A stretch of DNA of 5,336 nucleotides, taken from positions 22,205-27,540 of the forward strand of contig MGQK01000123.1 in assembly GCA_001797815.1 (NCBI GenBank), given 5' to 3'. This DNA is from Deltaproteobacteria bacterium RBG_13_61_14 (GTDB taxonomy: Bacteria; RBG-13-61-14). How positions within the stretch are numbered: the stretch's first letter is position 1; each line of letters begins with the position of its first letter. Below the pieces are notes generated by a model. The model was given only the letters and a program-made list of their open reading frames with translations. It made no database searches and was not told the origin of the DNA. This document shows, in pieces, positions 646 through 5,336 of the stretch. A program made the position numbers and the translations under genes.

Positions 646-1671
646 ATGGAACCCTATACCGAGAACGAGGCCTACGGCCAACTGAAGATCCTGGGCGAGA
701 TCGGCAAGACGCTCACCTCCACCCTCGATTTCCAGGAGGTGCTGCGGGTGATCATGAAGATCATCGCCGACCAGTTCGAGCCCCGGGACTGGTCGCTGCT
801 GTTGGTGGACGAGGAGAGCGAGGAGTTATATTTTGCCATCGTGGTGGGCGAAGCCAGCGACAAGCTCAAGGACGTGCGCCTGAAGATCGGGGAAGGGATC
901 GCGGGCTGGGTGGCGCAACACGGCCAGCCCCTGATCACGGAGGACGCCTCCCAGGACCCGCGCTTCGCCAAGTGGGTGGACCAAAAGACCGGGTTTGAGA
1001 CCAAGAGCATGGTTTGCCTGCCCCTGATCAGCAAGGGCCGCACCCTGGGCGTGATCGAGCTGCTCAACACCGTCCGCGGCCATTTCTCCGAGCGCGACAT
1101 CGAGCTCCTGGTGGCGCTCGCCGATTTCACGGCGATCGCGGTGGAGAACGCCCGCTACGTGAAAAGGATCAAGGATCTCTCGATCGTGGACGACGTGACC
1201 GGGCTTTACAACTCCCGGCACCTGCACGCCCTGCTGGAGACCGAAATCTCCCGGGCAGTCCGCTACTCGGCGCCGTTCTCCGTCATCTTCCTGGACCTCG
1301 ATTACTTCAAGCTGGTCAACGACAACCACGGCCACCTGGTCGGGTCCCGCCTGCTCCGCGAGATCGGCCAGGTGCTCAGGTTCAACCTCCGCACCGTGGA
1401 CTGGGCCACCCGCTACGGCGGCGACGAGTTCGTCCTCATCCTCCCCCGCACCGGCCGAAAGGAAGCCCTGCTGGTGGCCCAGCGGCTGCGCCACGCCCTC
1501 AACGGGACCGTCTTCCTGAAAAGCGAAAAACTCAACATCCGGATTACCGCTTCGTTCGGCATCGCCACCTTCCCGGAGGATGCCAAGAGCAAAGAGGACG
1601 CGATCCGGCTGGCGGACCAGGCCATGTACCGGGTCAAGCGCAGCACCCGCGACGATATTGCCCAAGCGTAA
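646..1671 (+). CDS. GAF-GGDEF cyclase with Hypr-type Ser signature (candidate cGAMP / c-di-GMP synthase)
   Basis: The protein has 341 residues from ATG 646; an in-frame TTG at 634 would add four. No clear Shine-Dalgarno sequence supports either start. A GAF sensor domain spans about residues 20-172 (FETKSMVCLPLISKGRTLGV at 117-136), a short linker follows, then a GGDEF domain from about 178 to the end. Conserved elements are DDVTGLYN (182-189), FLDLDYFKLVND (215-226, with metal ligand D217 and base-contacting N225), RYGGDEF (256-262), the I-site RTVD (249-252) exactly five residues before GGDEF, and the closing ADQAMYRVK. All catalytic residues are present, so the enzyme should be active. The guanine-contacting Asp of GHxxGD is Ser234 (GHLVGS). 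This change defines Hypr GGDEF enzymes, which make 3',3'-cGAMP as well as c-di-GMP in Geobacter. The protein has no membrane segment, so it is probably cytoplasmic and controlled by a GAF ligand. Cyclase activity is a confident call; cGAMP production is inference. Confidence 0.93.
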   Translation: MEPYTENEAYGQLKILGEIGKTLTSTLDFQEVLRVIMKIIADQFEPRDWSLLLVDEESEELYFAIVVGEASDKLKDVRLKIGEGIAGWVAQHGQPLITEDASQDPRFAKWVDQKTGFETKSMVCLPLISKGRTLGVIELLNTVRGHFSERDIELLVALADFTAIAVENARYVKRIKDLSIVDDVTGLYNSRHLHALLETEISRAVRYSAPFSVIFLDLDYFKLVNDNHGHLVGSRLLREIGQVLRFNLRTVDWATRYGGDEFVLILPRTGRKEALLVAQRLRHALNGTVFLKSEKLNIRITASFGIATFPEDAKSKEDAIRLADQAMYRVKRSTRDDIAQA

Positions 1672-1722
1672 GAATATCTCCAGGCAAGGCTCTCTTTTCT
1701 CTCCCTGGTTCAATCTTCTTTC

Positions 1723-1750
1723 TTGACCCTCCGGCAAGGAGCGTGATAAC
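1723..1750 (+). promoter_or_regulatory. Candidate promoter of the SGNH/TPR gene
   Basis: TTGACC (1723-1728) is followed by a 16-bp spacer and GATAAC (1745-1750). The -35 matches 5 of 6 consensus bases and the -10 matches 4 of 6. The expected transcription start near 1757 falls practically at the ATG at 1759, so the mRNA would be leaderless. An AAGGAG at 1736-1741 lies 17 nt from the ATG, too far for a normal Shine-Dalgarno sequence, and would sit inside the promoter spacer. If the gene is instead read through from the cyclase, this AAGGAG might still help. Confidence 0.3.
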
Positions 1751-1758
1751 TTTGGTCC

Positions 1759-3288
1759 ATGAGCCTGCCCCAACCCTCGCGCCGGCTGCTCTTCCCGGTC
1801 CTGGCTTTGGGGTTGTCCTTGCTCGTCCTCGCCGGCCTCGAACTCGGGCTCCGGCTCTTCGGGGCGGCCGCGTTCGAGCCGGACCCGTTCGTGGGCTTTG
1901 CCGGCAGCCACCCGTTCTTGGTCAAGGTCGGCCAGGGCAATGAGGCGCGCTGCCAGGTCAACCCCCGCCACCAGCCGTTTTTCAACGAAGTCTCCTTTCC
2001 CGCCCCAAAACCCGCCGCCAGCTACCGCGTCTTTGTGGCCGGCGGCAGCGGCGCACTCGGCTTCCCCTTTTTCGAGCCCGGCTCCTTTGCCCGGTTCCTG
2101 CAGGTCGGGCTTGATCTGCTTGAGCCCGGCCGGCCGCACCAGGTGATCAATGCCGGCGGCTTTGGTTATGCCAGCTACCGGGTGGCGCGGGTGGTGGAAG
2201 AGGTCTTGAACTACGAGCCGGACCTGGTGGTGGTGATGACCGGCCACAACGAGTTCCTGGAAAAACGGATCTATGGCGAGCGCGAGCAGGCCGGCCCGGC
2301 GCTGATCGCGGTCCGCTCTTGCCTGGACCGGCTCCGGCTTTACCGAGAGCTCCGGCAGGCGGTGACGGCGCTGCGGCCCTCTCCGGCGCCGTTGCTCAAG
2401 GAGGAGGTCGCCTGGGAAAAATACTCCCGCGATTCCAGGCAAGTCGCCCTCACCCTGGACCACTATCGCTACAACTTGGAAAAAATCGTCCGCCTCTGCC
2501 GGGAACGGAACGTCCCGGTGGTGTTTCTGACTTTGCCCTCGAACTTGAAGGATTTCCCGCCTTATCGCTCCCAACACGGCAAGCAATTGAGCCCCGAGGC
2601 CTCTGCACAATGGGAGGCCCATTATCAGCGCGGCCTTTCGCTCCTGGCCGAGAGCGACTCGGCCGCGGCCGTGCTCGAATTCGATCGGGCGATGGAGCTG
2701 GATTCCGGCTATGCCGCCTTGCAATACGCCAGGGGCCGGGCGCTCCTGGAGCAGGGCCGGCCGGAAATGGCCGAACTGGATTTCTGGTGGGCGGTTCAAC
2801 TCGACGCCTGGCCGGTGCGGGCCTTCCCGGAAATGAACGCGGCTGTGCGGGAGATGGCGGCCCGGGGCGCGATCGTGGCCGACGCGCTCTCGCTTTTTAC
2901 CGCGGCGGCAAAGGACCGGATTCCGGGCAACGACCTTTTCCTCGACCACTGCCACCCCACCCTGGCGGGTCAGGCGCTCCTGGCCCAATCGGTCCTCTTG
3001 GCCCTGGCCGAGAAGCGCGTCGTGCCCCTGCCGGAAAACTGGAGGCCGGATTACCAACAGGCGGCACGGCGCTACCAGGAGTCCCTGGGCCAGGGCTTCC
3101 TGGGCGAGGCCTATTACCGGGCCGCAGTCGAGGTGGGCGTCAACATGGCCCGGCCGCAAGAGGGCTTAGGCCTGGCCGAGGCGGCCTTTCGCCTGATCCC
3201 GGACCACCCCAAGCTCCCCCGGCTGCTCGAGCGGTTGCGGCAGGAAGCCGCGGCCAAGGCCGGAGCGCCGCTTCCGGAAAAACCGTAA
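1759..3288 (+). CDS. Membrane-anchored SGNH/GDSL-hydrolase-like protein with inserted TPRs
   Basis: The protein has 509 residues. An in-frame stop at 1747 makes ATG 1759 the first possible start. Residues 9-34 form one hydrophobic helix after a basic N-terminus, so it is probably a signal anchor placing the enzyme outside the inner membrane. SGNH blocks follow in order: VAGGSGALGFP (93-103) with presumed nucleophile S97, NAGGFGYASYR (131-141) with the block II glycine, TGHNEF (161-166) with the block III Asn, and DHCHP (396-400) with catalytic Asp396 and His399. Two 34-residue TPR-like units (about 285-318 and 319-352) sit between blocks III and V. The C-terminal 80 residues are helical and TPR-like. 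SGNH enzymes are esterases or acyltransferases acting on lipids, glycans or peptidoglycan; the substrate here is unknown. The next gene encodes a TPR-bearing GT-C glycosyltransferase, so a surface-glycan role is a reasonable inference. Confidence 0.82.
   Translation: MSLPQPSRRLLFPVLALGLSLLVLAGLELGLRLFGAAAFEPDPFVGFAGSHPFLVKVGQGNEARCQVNPRHQPFFNEVSFPAPKPAASYRVFVAGGSGALGFPFFEPGSFARFLQVGLDLLEPGRPHQVINAGGFGYASYRVARVVEEVLNYEPDLVVVMTGHNEFLEKRIYGEREQAGPALIAVRSCLDRLRLYRELRQAVTALRPSPAPLLKEEVAWEKYSRDSRQVALTLDHYRYNLEKIVRLCRERNVPVVFLTLPSNLKDFPPYRSQHGKQLSPEASAQWEAHYQRGLSLLAESDSAAAVLEFDRAMELDSGYAALQYARGRALLEQGRPEMAELDFWWAVQLDAWPVRAFPEMNAAVREMAARGAIVADALSLFTAAAKDRIPGNDLFLDHCHPTLAGQALLAQSVLLALAEKRVVPLPENWRPDYQQAARRYQESLGQGFLGEAYYRAAVEVGVNMARPQEGLGLAEAAFRLIPDHPKLPRLLERLRQEAAAKAGAPLPEKP
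2611..2814 (+). repeat. Two tandem TPR units inside the SGNH domain
   Basis: Residues 285-318 and 319-352 of the SGNH protein align as two 34-residue helix-turn-helix units. The first has HYQRGLSLL and AVLEFDRAMELD; the second has QYARGRALLEQGR and AELDFWWAVQLD. The periodicity and the A-x-x-x-F/Y-x-x-A-x-x-L/M-x-x pattern are those of tetratricopeptide repeats. They interrupt the hydrolase fold before its DxxH block. Confidence 0.7.
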
Positions 3289-3451: not shown

Positions 3452-5336
3452 ATGGCCAAACGCAAAACCAAGAAAAAGCCGCTCGGCACCCCGGGCCTGG
3501 TCCCGGCCGGCCCGGCCCCGACCGATATGGAACGCCCGGCGGGCCCGGCCGGGTGGCTCTCGAGCCCGCGCCGGCAAACTCTCGGCGCCGCCGTGTTCCT
3601 GGCCGTGCTGGCCGGGTTGGCTTATGCCAACTCTTTTCAGGCCGAATGGCACCTGGACGATACCACCAATATCACGCAAAATTACTTCATTCGGATTAAT
3701 TCCTTGACCCCCTCTATCCTGCTCCAGGCCATGGTCCAGGACCGGAAACAGAACCGTCCGTTCTCCAATTTAAGCTTTGCGCTGAATTATTATTTCAGCG
3801 GCGAGCAGGTCTGGGCTTACCACCTGGTGAATTGGCTGTTTCATCTGGCGGCGACCCTGGCGGCCTTTTCCTGGATCCGCCGCACGCTTCGGCTGGCCGG
3901 ACTGGCCGAGCCGTCTTCCAGCTTGGCCGCTTTTTCTGCCGCGGCCCTTTGGACCGTGCACCCGATCCATACCCAGGCGATTACCTATATCGTCCAGCGC
4001 CAGACCGTCCTGGCCTCGAGCTTATCCCTGGTCGCCCTGGCCGCTTACGCGGCCGGCCGGGAAGCCGTTTCTTCCCGGCGCAAGCGGATTCTCTACGCCG
4101 CCACCGTCCTGGCCTGGGTGCTGGCCCTCGGGTCCAAGGAAATCGCCGTGGTGACGCCCGGGTTGCTCATCCTTTATGAATTTTGCTTTTTCCAAAATGG
4201 TTCTTTCGCCTTTCTCCGGAGGCGGGCCCGGGCGCTGGCCGCGACCCTGGGCATTTTCGGGGTTCTGGGACTGATCTATCTTCGGCCCGAGATGTGGAGC
4301 CTCCTGGCCCGCTCCTTTCAAAGCTCTCTGTTCACGCCCGCAGAGCGCTTGATGACCGAGGCGCGGGTCCTGGTCCACTATGTAGTTCTGATCCTCTGGC
4401 CCTTGCCGTCCTGGCTCAGTTTGGAACACGACCCCGCCATCTCGACCTCGCTGTTTCATCCCTGGACCACGCTCCCCGCGGTCCTGCTCTGGACGGCGTT
4501 ACTCGGAGTCAGCCTGCGTTTTGCCCGTTCCCGTCCTTTCTTCAGTTTCGCCGTGCTCTGGTATCTGGGCAATTTGTTTCTCGAATCCTCTTTCCTTCCT
4601 CTGGACCTGTTCTTTGAGCATCGCCTTTACCTGCCTTCCCTGGCCGTGGTCACTCCCTTGGCGGTCGCGCTGGTGTTAAGTCTCCGTCGTTTCTCGAGAA
4701 TTCGATCGCTCCTGCTCGCCGGCATCCTCTTCTTCCTGCTGACGAGCACTCTCGTCCGGAACCAGGTCTGGCAGACCGATCTCGGGCTTTATCGGGATTG
4801 TGTGCGCAAGTCCCCTTTCCAGGTCCGCAGCCGCGTGAATCTGGCCAAAGCCTATCTGGATGCCGGGCAGTATCAGCGCTCCCAAATCGAATACGAAAAA
4901 TCCATCTCGCTCGGTTCCAAGTCGGCCGAGGCCCATAACGGCCTCGGGGAAATCGCTTTGCGGGATGGACAGACCGACCGGGCCTGGCAATTATTTCAGG
5001 CTTCGCTTCAGATTCGGCCCAATGCGGACGCGTTCATCGGCCTGGGGAACGTGCATTATTACCGCGAGCAATACGACCAGGCGATTCCGTTTTTCTCCAA
5101 AGCGATCGAGCTTGATCCTTATTATCCGGAAGCCTACAATGATCGCGGGAACTGTTACCGCCGGCTGAATCATTATGAAGAAGCGGTTCGGGATTACACC
5201 CGGGCGGTAGAGCTTAACCCTCGATACGCGGAAGCTTATAATAATCGAGGGAATGCCCAGGCGGACCAGGGCCGGCTGGAGCAGGCGGCGGCGGACTATT
5301 CCCGGGCCCTGGTTCTCAAACCCCGCTATGCCGAGG
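3452..5336 (+). CDS. GT-C/TMTC-like membrane glycosyltransferase with C-terminal TPR array (3' end outside window)
   Basis: The frame is open from ATG 3452 to the window edge (628 codons visible). It is the only possible start, because no ATG, GTG or TTG occurs in frame between the stop at 3386 and 3452; no Shine-Dalgarno sequence is visible. A basic, Pro/Gly-rich tail (2-40, KRKTKKKP) precedes about 11-12 membrane helices (43 to about 434). Motifs resemble those of TMTC-type O-mannosyltransferase-like proteins: EWHLDDTTNITQN (65-77) with the GT-C acidic pair D69/D70 in the first external loop, NRPFSNLSFALNYYF (101-115), AYHLVNWLFH (122-131), HPIHTQAITYIVQRQ (170-184), LGSKEIAVVTPG (226-237) and EHRLYLPS (389-396). 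TPRs then start near residue 458 and continue past the edge. Such enzymes use a polyprenyl-phosphate sugar to glycosylate proteins or glycans outside the membrane; donor and acceptor are unknown. The family call is strong, but the exact sugar chemistry cannot be read from sequence. Confidence 0.85.
   Translation, partial: MAKRKTKKKPLGTPGLVPAGPAPTDMERPAGPAGWLSSPRRQTLGAAVFLAVLAGLAYANSFQAEWHLDDTTNITQNYFIRINSLTPSILLQAMVQDRKQNRPFSNLSFALNYYFSGEQVWAYHLVNWLFHLAATLAAFSWIRRTLRLAGLAEPSSSLAAFSAAALWTVHPIHTQAITYIVQRQTVLASSLSLVALAAYAAGREAVSSRRKRILYAATVLAWVLALGSKEIAVVTPGLLILYEFCFFQNGSFAFLRRRARALAATLGIFGVLGLIYLRPEMWSLLARSFQSSLFTPAERLMTEARVLVHYVVLILWPLPSWLSLEHDPAISTSLFHPWTTLPAVLLWTALLGVSLRFARSRPFFSFAVLWYLGNLFLESSFLPLDLFFEHRLYLPSLAVVTPLAVALVLSLRRFSRIRSLLLAGILFFLLTSTLVRNQVWQTDLGLYRDCVRKSPFQVRSRVNLAKAYLDAGQYQRSQIEYEKSISLGSKSAEAHNGLGEIALRDGQTDRAWQLFQASLQIRPNADAFIGLGNVHYYREQYDQAIPFFSKAIELDPYYPEAYNDRGNCYRRLNHYEEAVRDYTRAVELNPRYAEAYNNRGNAQADQGRLEQAAADYSRALVLKPRYAE
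4823..5336 (+). repeat. TPR array of the GT-C protein (five full units plus the start of a sixth)
   Basis: Residues 458-490, 491-523, 524-557, 558-591 and 592-625 are successive TPR units of 33, 33, 34, 34 and 34 residues, and a sixth begins at 626. The last units are alike even in DNA, with a 102-bp period starting at 5123, 5225 and 5327. Compare YPEAYNDRGN, YAEAYNNRGN and YAE, and the endings AIELDPY, AVELNPR and ALVLKPR. Similarity rises toward the window edge, which suggests recent duplication of the later units. Confidence 0.88.

Follow-up and report, generated by a model that had tools for sequence, protein, structure and literature searches.

A GAF–GGDEF protein from a little-sampled bacterial lineage is a predicted Hypr cyclase of the GacB subtype

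The gene described here very likely encodes a GAF–GGDEF cyclase of the Hypr class and GacB subtype, whose main product would be 3',3'-cGAMP and whose activity would be raised by cAMP and lowered by c-di-GMP. A reading of the DNA had singled it out as a candidate 3',3'-cGAMP synthase of the Hypr class (the original prediction), and this is supported, as far as sequence can tell, by the alignment of the signature Ser, the side of the GGDEF tree on which the protein falls and the intact active site. Its residues, domain order, orthology, tree placement and predicted fold, described below, were observed directly. The class itself is not new; its members have already been described from Myxococcus, Geobacter, Bdellovibrio and other bacteria. 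It is well supported that the present protein is a further member of this known class, with the already known GacB layout, from a lineage that has been little sampled.

RESULTS

Gene, domains and surroundings

The window, the whole stretch of 5,336 nucleotides that was analysed (C123:22205-27540), is part of a 4.7-Mb draft genome. The features of the cyclase gene are collected in Table 1. The predicted residue number of the signature, Ser234, matches the ATG at 646; translation could instead begin at an in-frame TTG (634), which gives the longest ORF, of 345 residues, and would turn Ser234 into Ser238. Pfam finds one GAF and one GGDEF domain in the protein and nothing more, and thus no REC domain. 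A long ORF on the minus strand (826-3159) lies opposite the coding strand, the window being rich in GC, and we regard it as spurious.

Table 1. Features of the cyclase gene, in window coordinates
Feature	Position	Strand	Remark
GAF–Hypr GGDEF coding sequence	646..1671	+	341 aa from ATG 646; stop 1669-1671
GAF domain (PF01590)	727..1143	+	Closest solved domain: cAMP-bound GAF of Leptospira Lcd1 (5w10)
GGDEF domain (PF00990)	1183..1653	+	Closest solved domain: GacA Hypr GGDEF (6d9m)
Cross-dimer Ser	1213..1215	+	By alignment; GacA Tyr304, Arg in canonical diguanylate cyclases; role from PMC6456294
Base-contacting Asn	1318..1320	+	By alignment; GacA Asn339; role from PMC6456294
Hypr signature Ser	1345..1347	+	By alignment; GacA Ser347/348, PleD Asp344
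RxxD inhibitory-site motif (RTVD)	1390..1401	+	By alignment
GGDEF motif	1417..1431	+	By alignment; central Asp needed with Ser in the Goldilocks model (PMC6456294)
Arg, second half of I-site	1483..1485	+	By alignment; GacA Arg393 (PMC6456294)

On the same strand as the cyclase, the window holds an SGNH/GDSL-like hydrolase gene with a TPR stretch (1759-3288) and a gene for a long membrane protein with a TPR array at its C-terminus (3452-5336). In the stretches read from two genomes of the same phylum, no gene neighbourhood is conserved: the divergent MoaE and PFK genes upstream and the SGNH/TPR genes downstream are absent beside the orthologues, so that no operon partner backs the function. Further upstream, outside the window, two matches to linalool dehydratase/isomerase (PF18566; L001:5346-6971 and L001:7771-8925) lie near a PMT-like membrane protein.

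A Ser held at the specificity site

The stretch VNDNHGHLVGS at 1315-1347 was reread in the window and is correct, its last codon, TCC, encoding Ser. The residue stands at the base-contact position, where a canonical diguanylate cyclase has Asp. Its proposed equivalence to GacA Ser347 is borne out by the alignment, which sets it opposite Ser348 of the G. metallireducens GacA (6d9m) and Asp344 of PleD. The rest of the active site is intact as predicted, with D217, N225 and the GGDEF motif (258-262) all present, and the domain is not degenerate.

Ser occupies this site in all 31 full-length GAF–GGDEF members examined, namely the window protein together with 30 relatives spread over several phyla. 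It is encoded by AGC in 22 of them, TCG in four, AGT in three and TCC in two. Because the TCN and AGY boxes are not one silent change apart, the Ser looks held by selection, and its presence throughout the family in both codon boxes means that it is neither a chance residue nor a sequencing error. The Hypr share of GGDEF domains has been reported as about 0.17% (PMC9140294).

Further Hypr determinants

The Ser alone is insufficient: in the work of Hallberg et al. (2019, PMC6456294), Ser combined with GGEEF was dead, and Ser combined with GGDEF worked. The same study described an Arg, conserved in 94% of the cyclases predicted to be canonical, that contacts the base in the other monomer. Where a Hypr enzyme has Tyr, Ser, Ala or Gln at this cross-dimer position, its product is mainly cGAMP, and more c-di-GMP is made when Arg stands there. 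Both of these published determinants, which extend the original prediction, also fit the window protein. At the cross-dimer, specificity and GG-D/E-EF sites it reads S-S-D, compared with Y-S-D in GacA and R-D-E in PleD. The cross-dimer context is GLYNSRHL in the window protein and GLFNYRYL in 6d9m, where Tyr304, placed relative to Ser348 of the printed sequence, is the residue after Asn.

The Asp of the GGDEF motif is invariant in 31/31 family members, and the catalytic residues, including GGDEF and the general-base Glu, are intact and invariant across the family. The I-site is retained as well, with its RxxD motif and second Arg. In a wider set of 114 GGDEF domains, GGD accompanies Ser/Thr in 45/45 cases, the other domains having D in 41/69 and E in 28/69, and the cross-dimer Arg occurs in 0/45 Ser/Thr domains versus 37/69 others; the counts are uncorrected for shared descent, and the domains, having been collected by similarity to the GAF–Hypr family, form no census.

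Relation to solved structures

Among all solved structures, the top sequence match (159.5 bits, versus 106.6 bits for PleD) is 6d9m, in which the Hypr GGDEF domain of G. metallireducens GacA is fused to T4 lysozyme; the alignment of this domain with the window protein is free of gaps. An AlphaFold2 model built from the 31 family members has a mean pLDDT of 88 and a pTM of 0.55, the inter-domain arrangement being uncertain. When the GGDEF domain of this model was searched with VIA-align, 6d9m again came first (Z 29.1, rmsd 1.0 Å over 168 residues, 47% identity).

Phylogeny and spread of the family

The tree check proposed with the original prediction puts the window protein with the Hypr domains, across a well-supported branch from the canonical ones. 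In the IQ-TREE phylogeny of the 114 domains, this branch (100/83) splits off 68 canonical domains, among them PleD and three GGDEF domains of the window's own genome. The Hypr side contains all Ser/Thr domains, GacA and the window protein among them, and one Ala-bearing domain; within it the deep order is weakly resolved, the bootstrap is unsettled and GacA is the sole assayed Hypr sequence included. The window protein is sister to two orthologues from the same phylum (100/94), with an Acidobacteriota group adjoining, and Geobacter GacA pairs not with it but with a second protein of the window's genome (99/89).

The Ala-bearing domain, nested inside the Hypr side, is a verrucomicrobial GGDEF (L080). 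A small separate Ser lineage (L067, L068, L070 and L071), from Acidobacteriota, Nitrospirota and an uncultured bacterium, combines a degenerate I-site with an acidic residue (Asp or Glu) in the cross-dimer position.

The phylum is sparsely sampled, with three genomes here including the window's own; both of the others keep the gene with its Ser, at 64-66% identity. Full-length orthologues are GAF–GGDEF proteins, mostly of 340-390 residues, with hosts in Acidobacteriota, Methylomirabilota, Desulfuromonadales, Myxococcota (two Corallococcus strains among them), Nitrospirota and further lineages. The loci gathered in all span Acidobacteriota, Methylomirabilota, Myxococcota, Thermodesulfobacteriota, Nitrospirota and others.

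The GAF domain and cAMP

Compared with solved structures, the GAF domain is closest to 5w10, the Leptospira Lcd1 GAF with cAMP, both in sequence (144.6 bits) and in fold (rmsd 2.2 Å, 42% identity). The next matches are the adenylate cyclase tandem GAFs (1ykd), PDE5, PDE10 and PDE2, and almost all of the best ones are cyclic-nucleotide GAFs. In some family members the DPRF..VD..TGF stretch of the domain differs or is missing.

In a study of cAMP and cGAMP in M. xanthus, GacB is said to have been named as the cAMP-activated enzyme. According to a 2025 review, cGAMP production in M. xanthus has cAMP as activator and c-di-GMP as inhibitor (PMC12288465). Activation by cAMP is also described for Lcd1, a diguanylate cyclase (PMC8846402). 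The genome carries four class III nucleotide cyclase domains. Since the GAF is nearest to that of cAMP-bound Lcd1, Lcd1 is activated by cAMP and these cyclase domains are present, cAMP gating appears likely, and cAMP probably binds the GAF domain and activates the window enzyme, by analogy with these systems. The ligand is predicted from similarity, and GAF domains change ligand easily.

Elsewhere in the genome (G000:C73:48400-54340; L142:2419-8338), three same-strand genes encode a CHASE2–class III cyclase, a protein that matches the cNMP-binding domain twice and a GAF-GAF-HD-GYP phosphodiesterase. This run looks like a cAMP-linked signalling module.

Other cyclic dinucleotide components of the genome

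Six GGDEF domains were found in the genome, and two of these have the Hypr Ser/Thr signature. The second candidate (G000:C130:64100-65485, minus strand; loci L004 and L144) is a REC-(weak GAF)-GGDEF protein of 462 residues, with Thr at the specificity site (GHLIGT), a GGDEF motif and NTR at the cross-dimer site; it is the protein that pairs with Geobacter GacA in the tree. One Corallococcus genome (G038) likewise encodes both types, GacB type and REC-bearing GacA type, and in one genome of the window's phylum (G001) the REC-type homologue runs into the contig end before the GGDEF domain.

GEMM-Ib riboswitches are a mark of the Geobacter-type cGAMP pathway, and a search for them was proposed with the original prediction. 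The GEMM-I riboswitch model (RF01051) gave no match in the window's genome, where 150 of 335 candidates were scored, or in the two same-phylum genomes; the same search returned 1, 4 and 8 matches in three Desulfuromonadales genomes. There is thus no known cGAMP receptor in sight. No Rfam family matched within the window, and the c-di-GMP-II riboswitch was not found in the genome, in a search run without a positive control. The genome has 19 PilZ matches, versus six GGDEF domains, and four HD-GYP domains, none of which we assign as cGAMP-specific. For PmxA, a cGAMP-specific HD-GYP, a signature glutamine has reportedly been published.

DISCUSSION

Proposed mechanism

By analogy with the characterised enzymes, we infer the product, the activation by cAMP and the inhibition by c-di-GMP of the window enzyme as follows. 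Two GGDEF domains would dimerise, each holding one purine NTP. With Ser in place of Asp at the position facing the Watson-Crick edge, GTP or ATP could be accepted; the shorter Asp of GGDEF would keep the metal at the right distance, and the guanine bias would be lost in the absence of the cross-dimer Arg. The combination of Ser, GGDEF Asp and no cross-dimer Arg thus points to 3',3'-cGAMP as the main product, probably accompanied by some c-di-GMP and c-di-AMP. This scheme follows the mechanism of GacA, in which the Ser takes either purine, the GGDEF Asp sets the metal distance and the GGDEF Glu is the general base across the dimer (PMC6456294). The binding of cAMP to the N-terminal GAF domain would raise activity. 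As the I-site is intact, feedback inhibition is suggested as well, c-di-GMP lowering activity from this site.

Alternative readings

The enzyme might in practice be a diguanylate cyclase in which the Ser is tolerated and c-di-GMP is the main product. An engineered D-to-S variant of GSU3350 did remain active as a diguanylate cyclase only, and Hypr enzymes with the cross-dimer Arg yield more c-di-GMP; however, the window protein has Ser rather than Arg at that position, natural Ser enzymes are reported to be mostly cGAMP-making (PMC6456294), and the specificity Ser is kept throughout the family. We therefore regard this reading as improbable. More remote still, and rejected, is a GGDEF domain that has lost catalysis and serves as a receptor for c-di-GMP: its intact I-site would be suited to such a role, but the GGDEF motif and the general-base Glu are intact and invariant.

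A different question concerns the input only, and overlaps with our preferred reading on the product: the protein may be a Hypr cGAMP synthase whose GAF domain is a plain dimerisation module or a sensor of another ligand. The diversity of GAF domains and the variable DPRF..VD..TGF stretch are compatible with this, and we give it some weight, yet consider it unlikely when almost all of the best solved matches are cyclic-nucleotide GAFs, with the cAMP-bound Lcd1 first, and cGAMP synthesis in M. xanthus is activated by cAMP (PMC12288465). A cAMP-gated Hypr synthase remains our preferred reading.

Significance

As the original prediction anticipated, routine annotation gives only 'diguanylate cyclase', which is probably wrong on the product. 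The present protein would extend GacB-type cGAMP synthesis to another lineage. It is ordinary for its class, and its interest comes from this lineage and from the question of the downstream receptor. Judging from the distribution of the orthologues, cGAMP synthases that carry a GAF domain, and are perhaps gated by cAMP, seem to occur in many phyla, and such a wide spread makes the receptor question testable. More speculatively, if the GAF–Hypr layout works in this way in all these phyla, the relay from cAMP to cGAMP would be an ancient and widespread circuit.

It is tempting to go further and propose cGAMP as a main messenger in this phylum, and no side line, where two of six GGDEF domains are of the Hypr kind, one probably cAMP-gated and one REC-bearing. 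With no GEMM-I riboswitch detected, the receptor would then be a not-yet-described protein or RNA. We put this forward tentatively, as an idea that may well prove wrong.

Comparison with known systems

PleD of Caulobacter has the GGDEF fold, catalytic residues and I-site in common with the window protein, but differs in Asp344, GGEEF and NRR, compared with Ser, GGDEF and NSR. Lcd1 of Leptospira interrogans (5w10) shares the GAF–GGDEF order, and its GAF domain, cAMP-bound in the crystal, is about 42% identical. Lcd1 has, however, been described as a diguanylate cyclase that shares the key catalytic residues with PleD (PMC8846402, PMC12943098), and not as a Hypr enzyme. The GacA of Geobacter (GSU1658, Gmet_1914; 6d9m) is the best PDB match and shares Ser348, Asn339, GGDEF and the I-site, but it carries a REC domain (PMC6456294), which the window protein lacks, and a cross-dimer Tyr in place of Ser.

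The closest relation is to GacB. M. xanthus GacB, presumably MXAN_2643, is a GAF–GGDEF protein of about 365 residues, and, going by length, the Corallococcus orthologue group is presumably the same protein. A GacB deletion record reaching residue 355 fits that length, which is near that of the Corallococcus orthologues (PMC4877007), and both GacA and GacB of M. xanthus were assigned to the Hypr class in vitro (PMC8844925). Judged through these orthologues, GacB has the same GAF–GGDEF layout and size class as the window protein, with the specificity Ser, GGDEF and an intact I-site; the orthologues are about 46% identical to it, come from a different phylum and have Ala at the cross-dimer site where it has Ser. 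The window protein shows the layout of this subtype, GAF–GGDEF without REC at about 340-390 residues, and a GAF domain of the cyclic-nucleotide kind, nearest in sequence and fold to the cAMP-bound Lcd1. The Hypr class of the original prediction stands, but the nearest characterised type is GacB rather than the REC-bearing GacA, for which the genome has a protein of its own.
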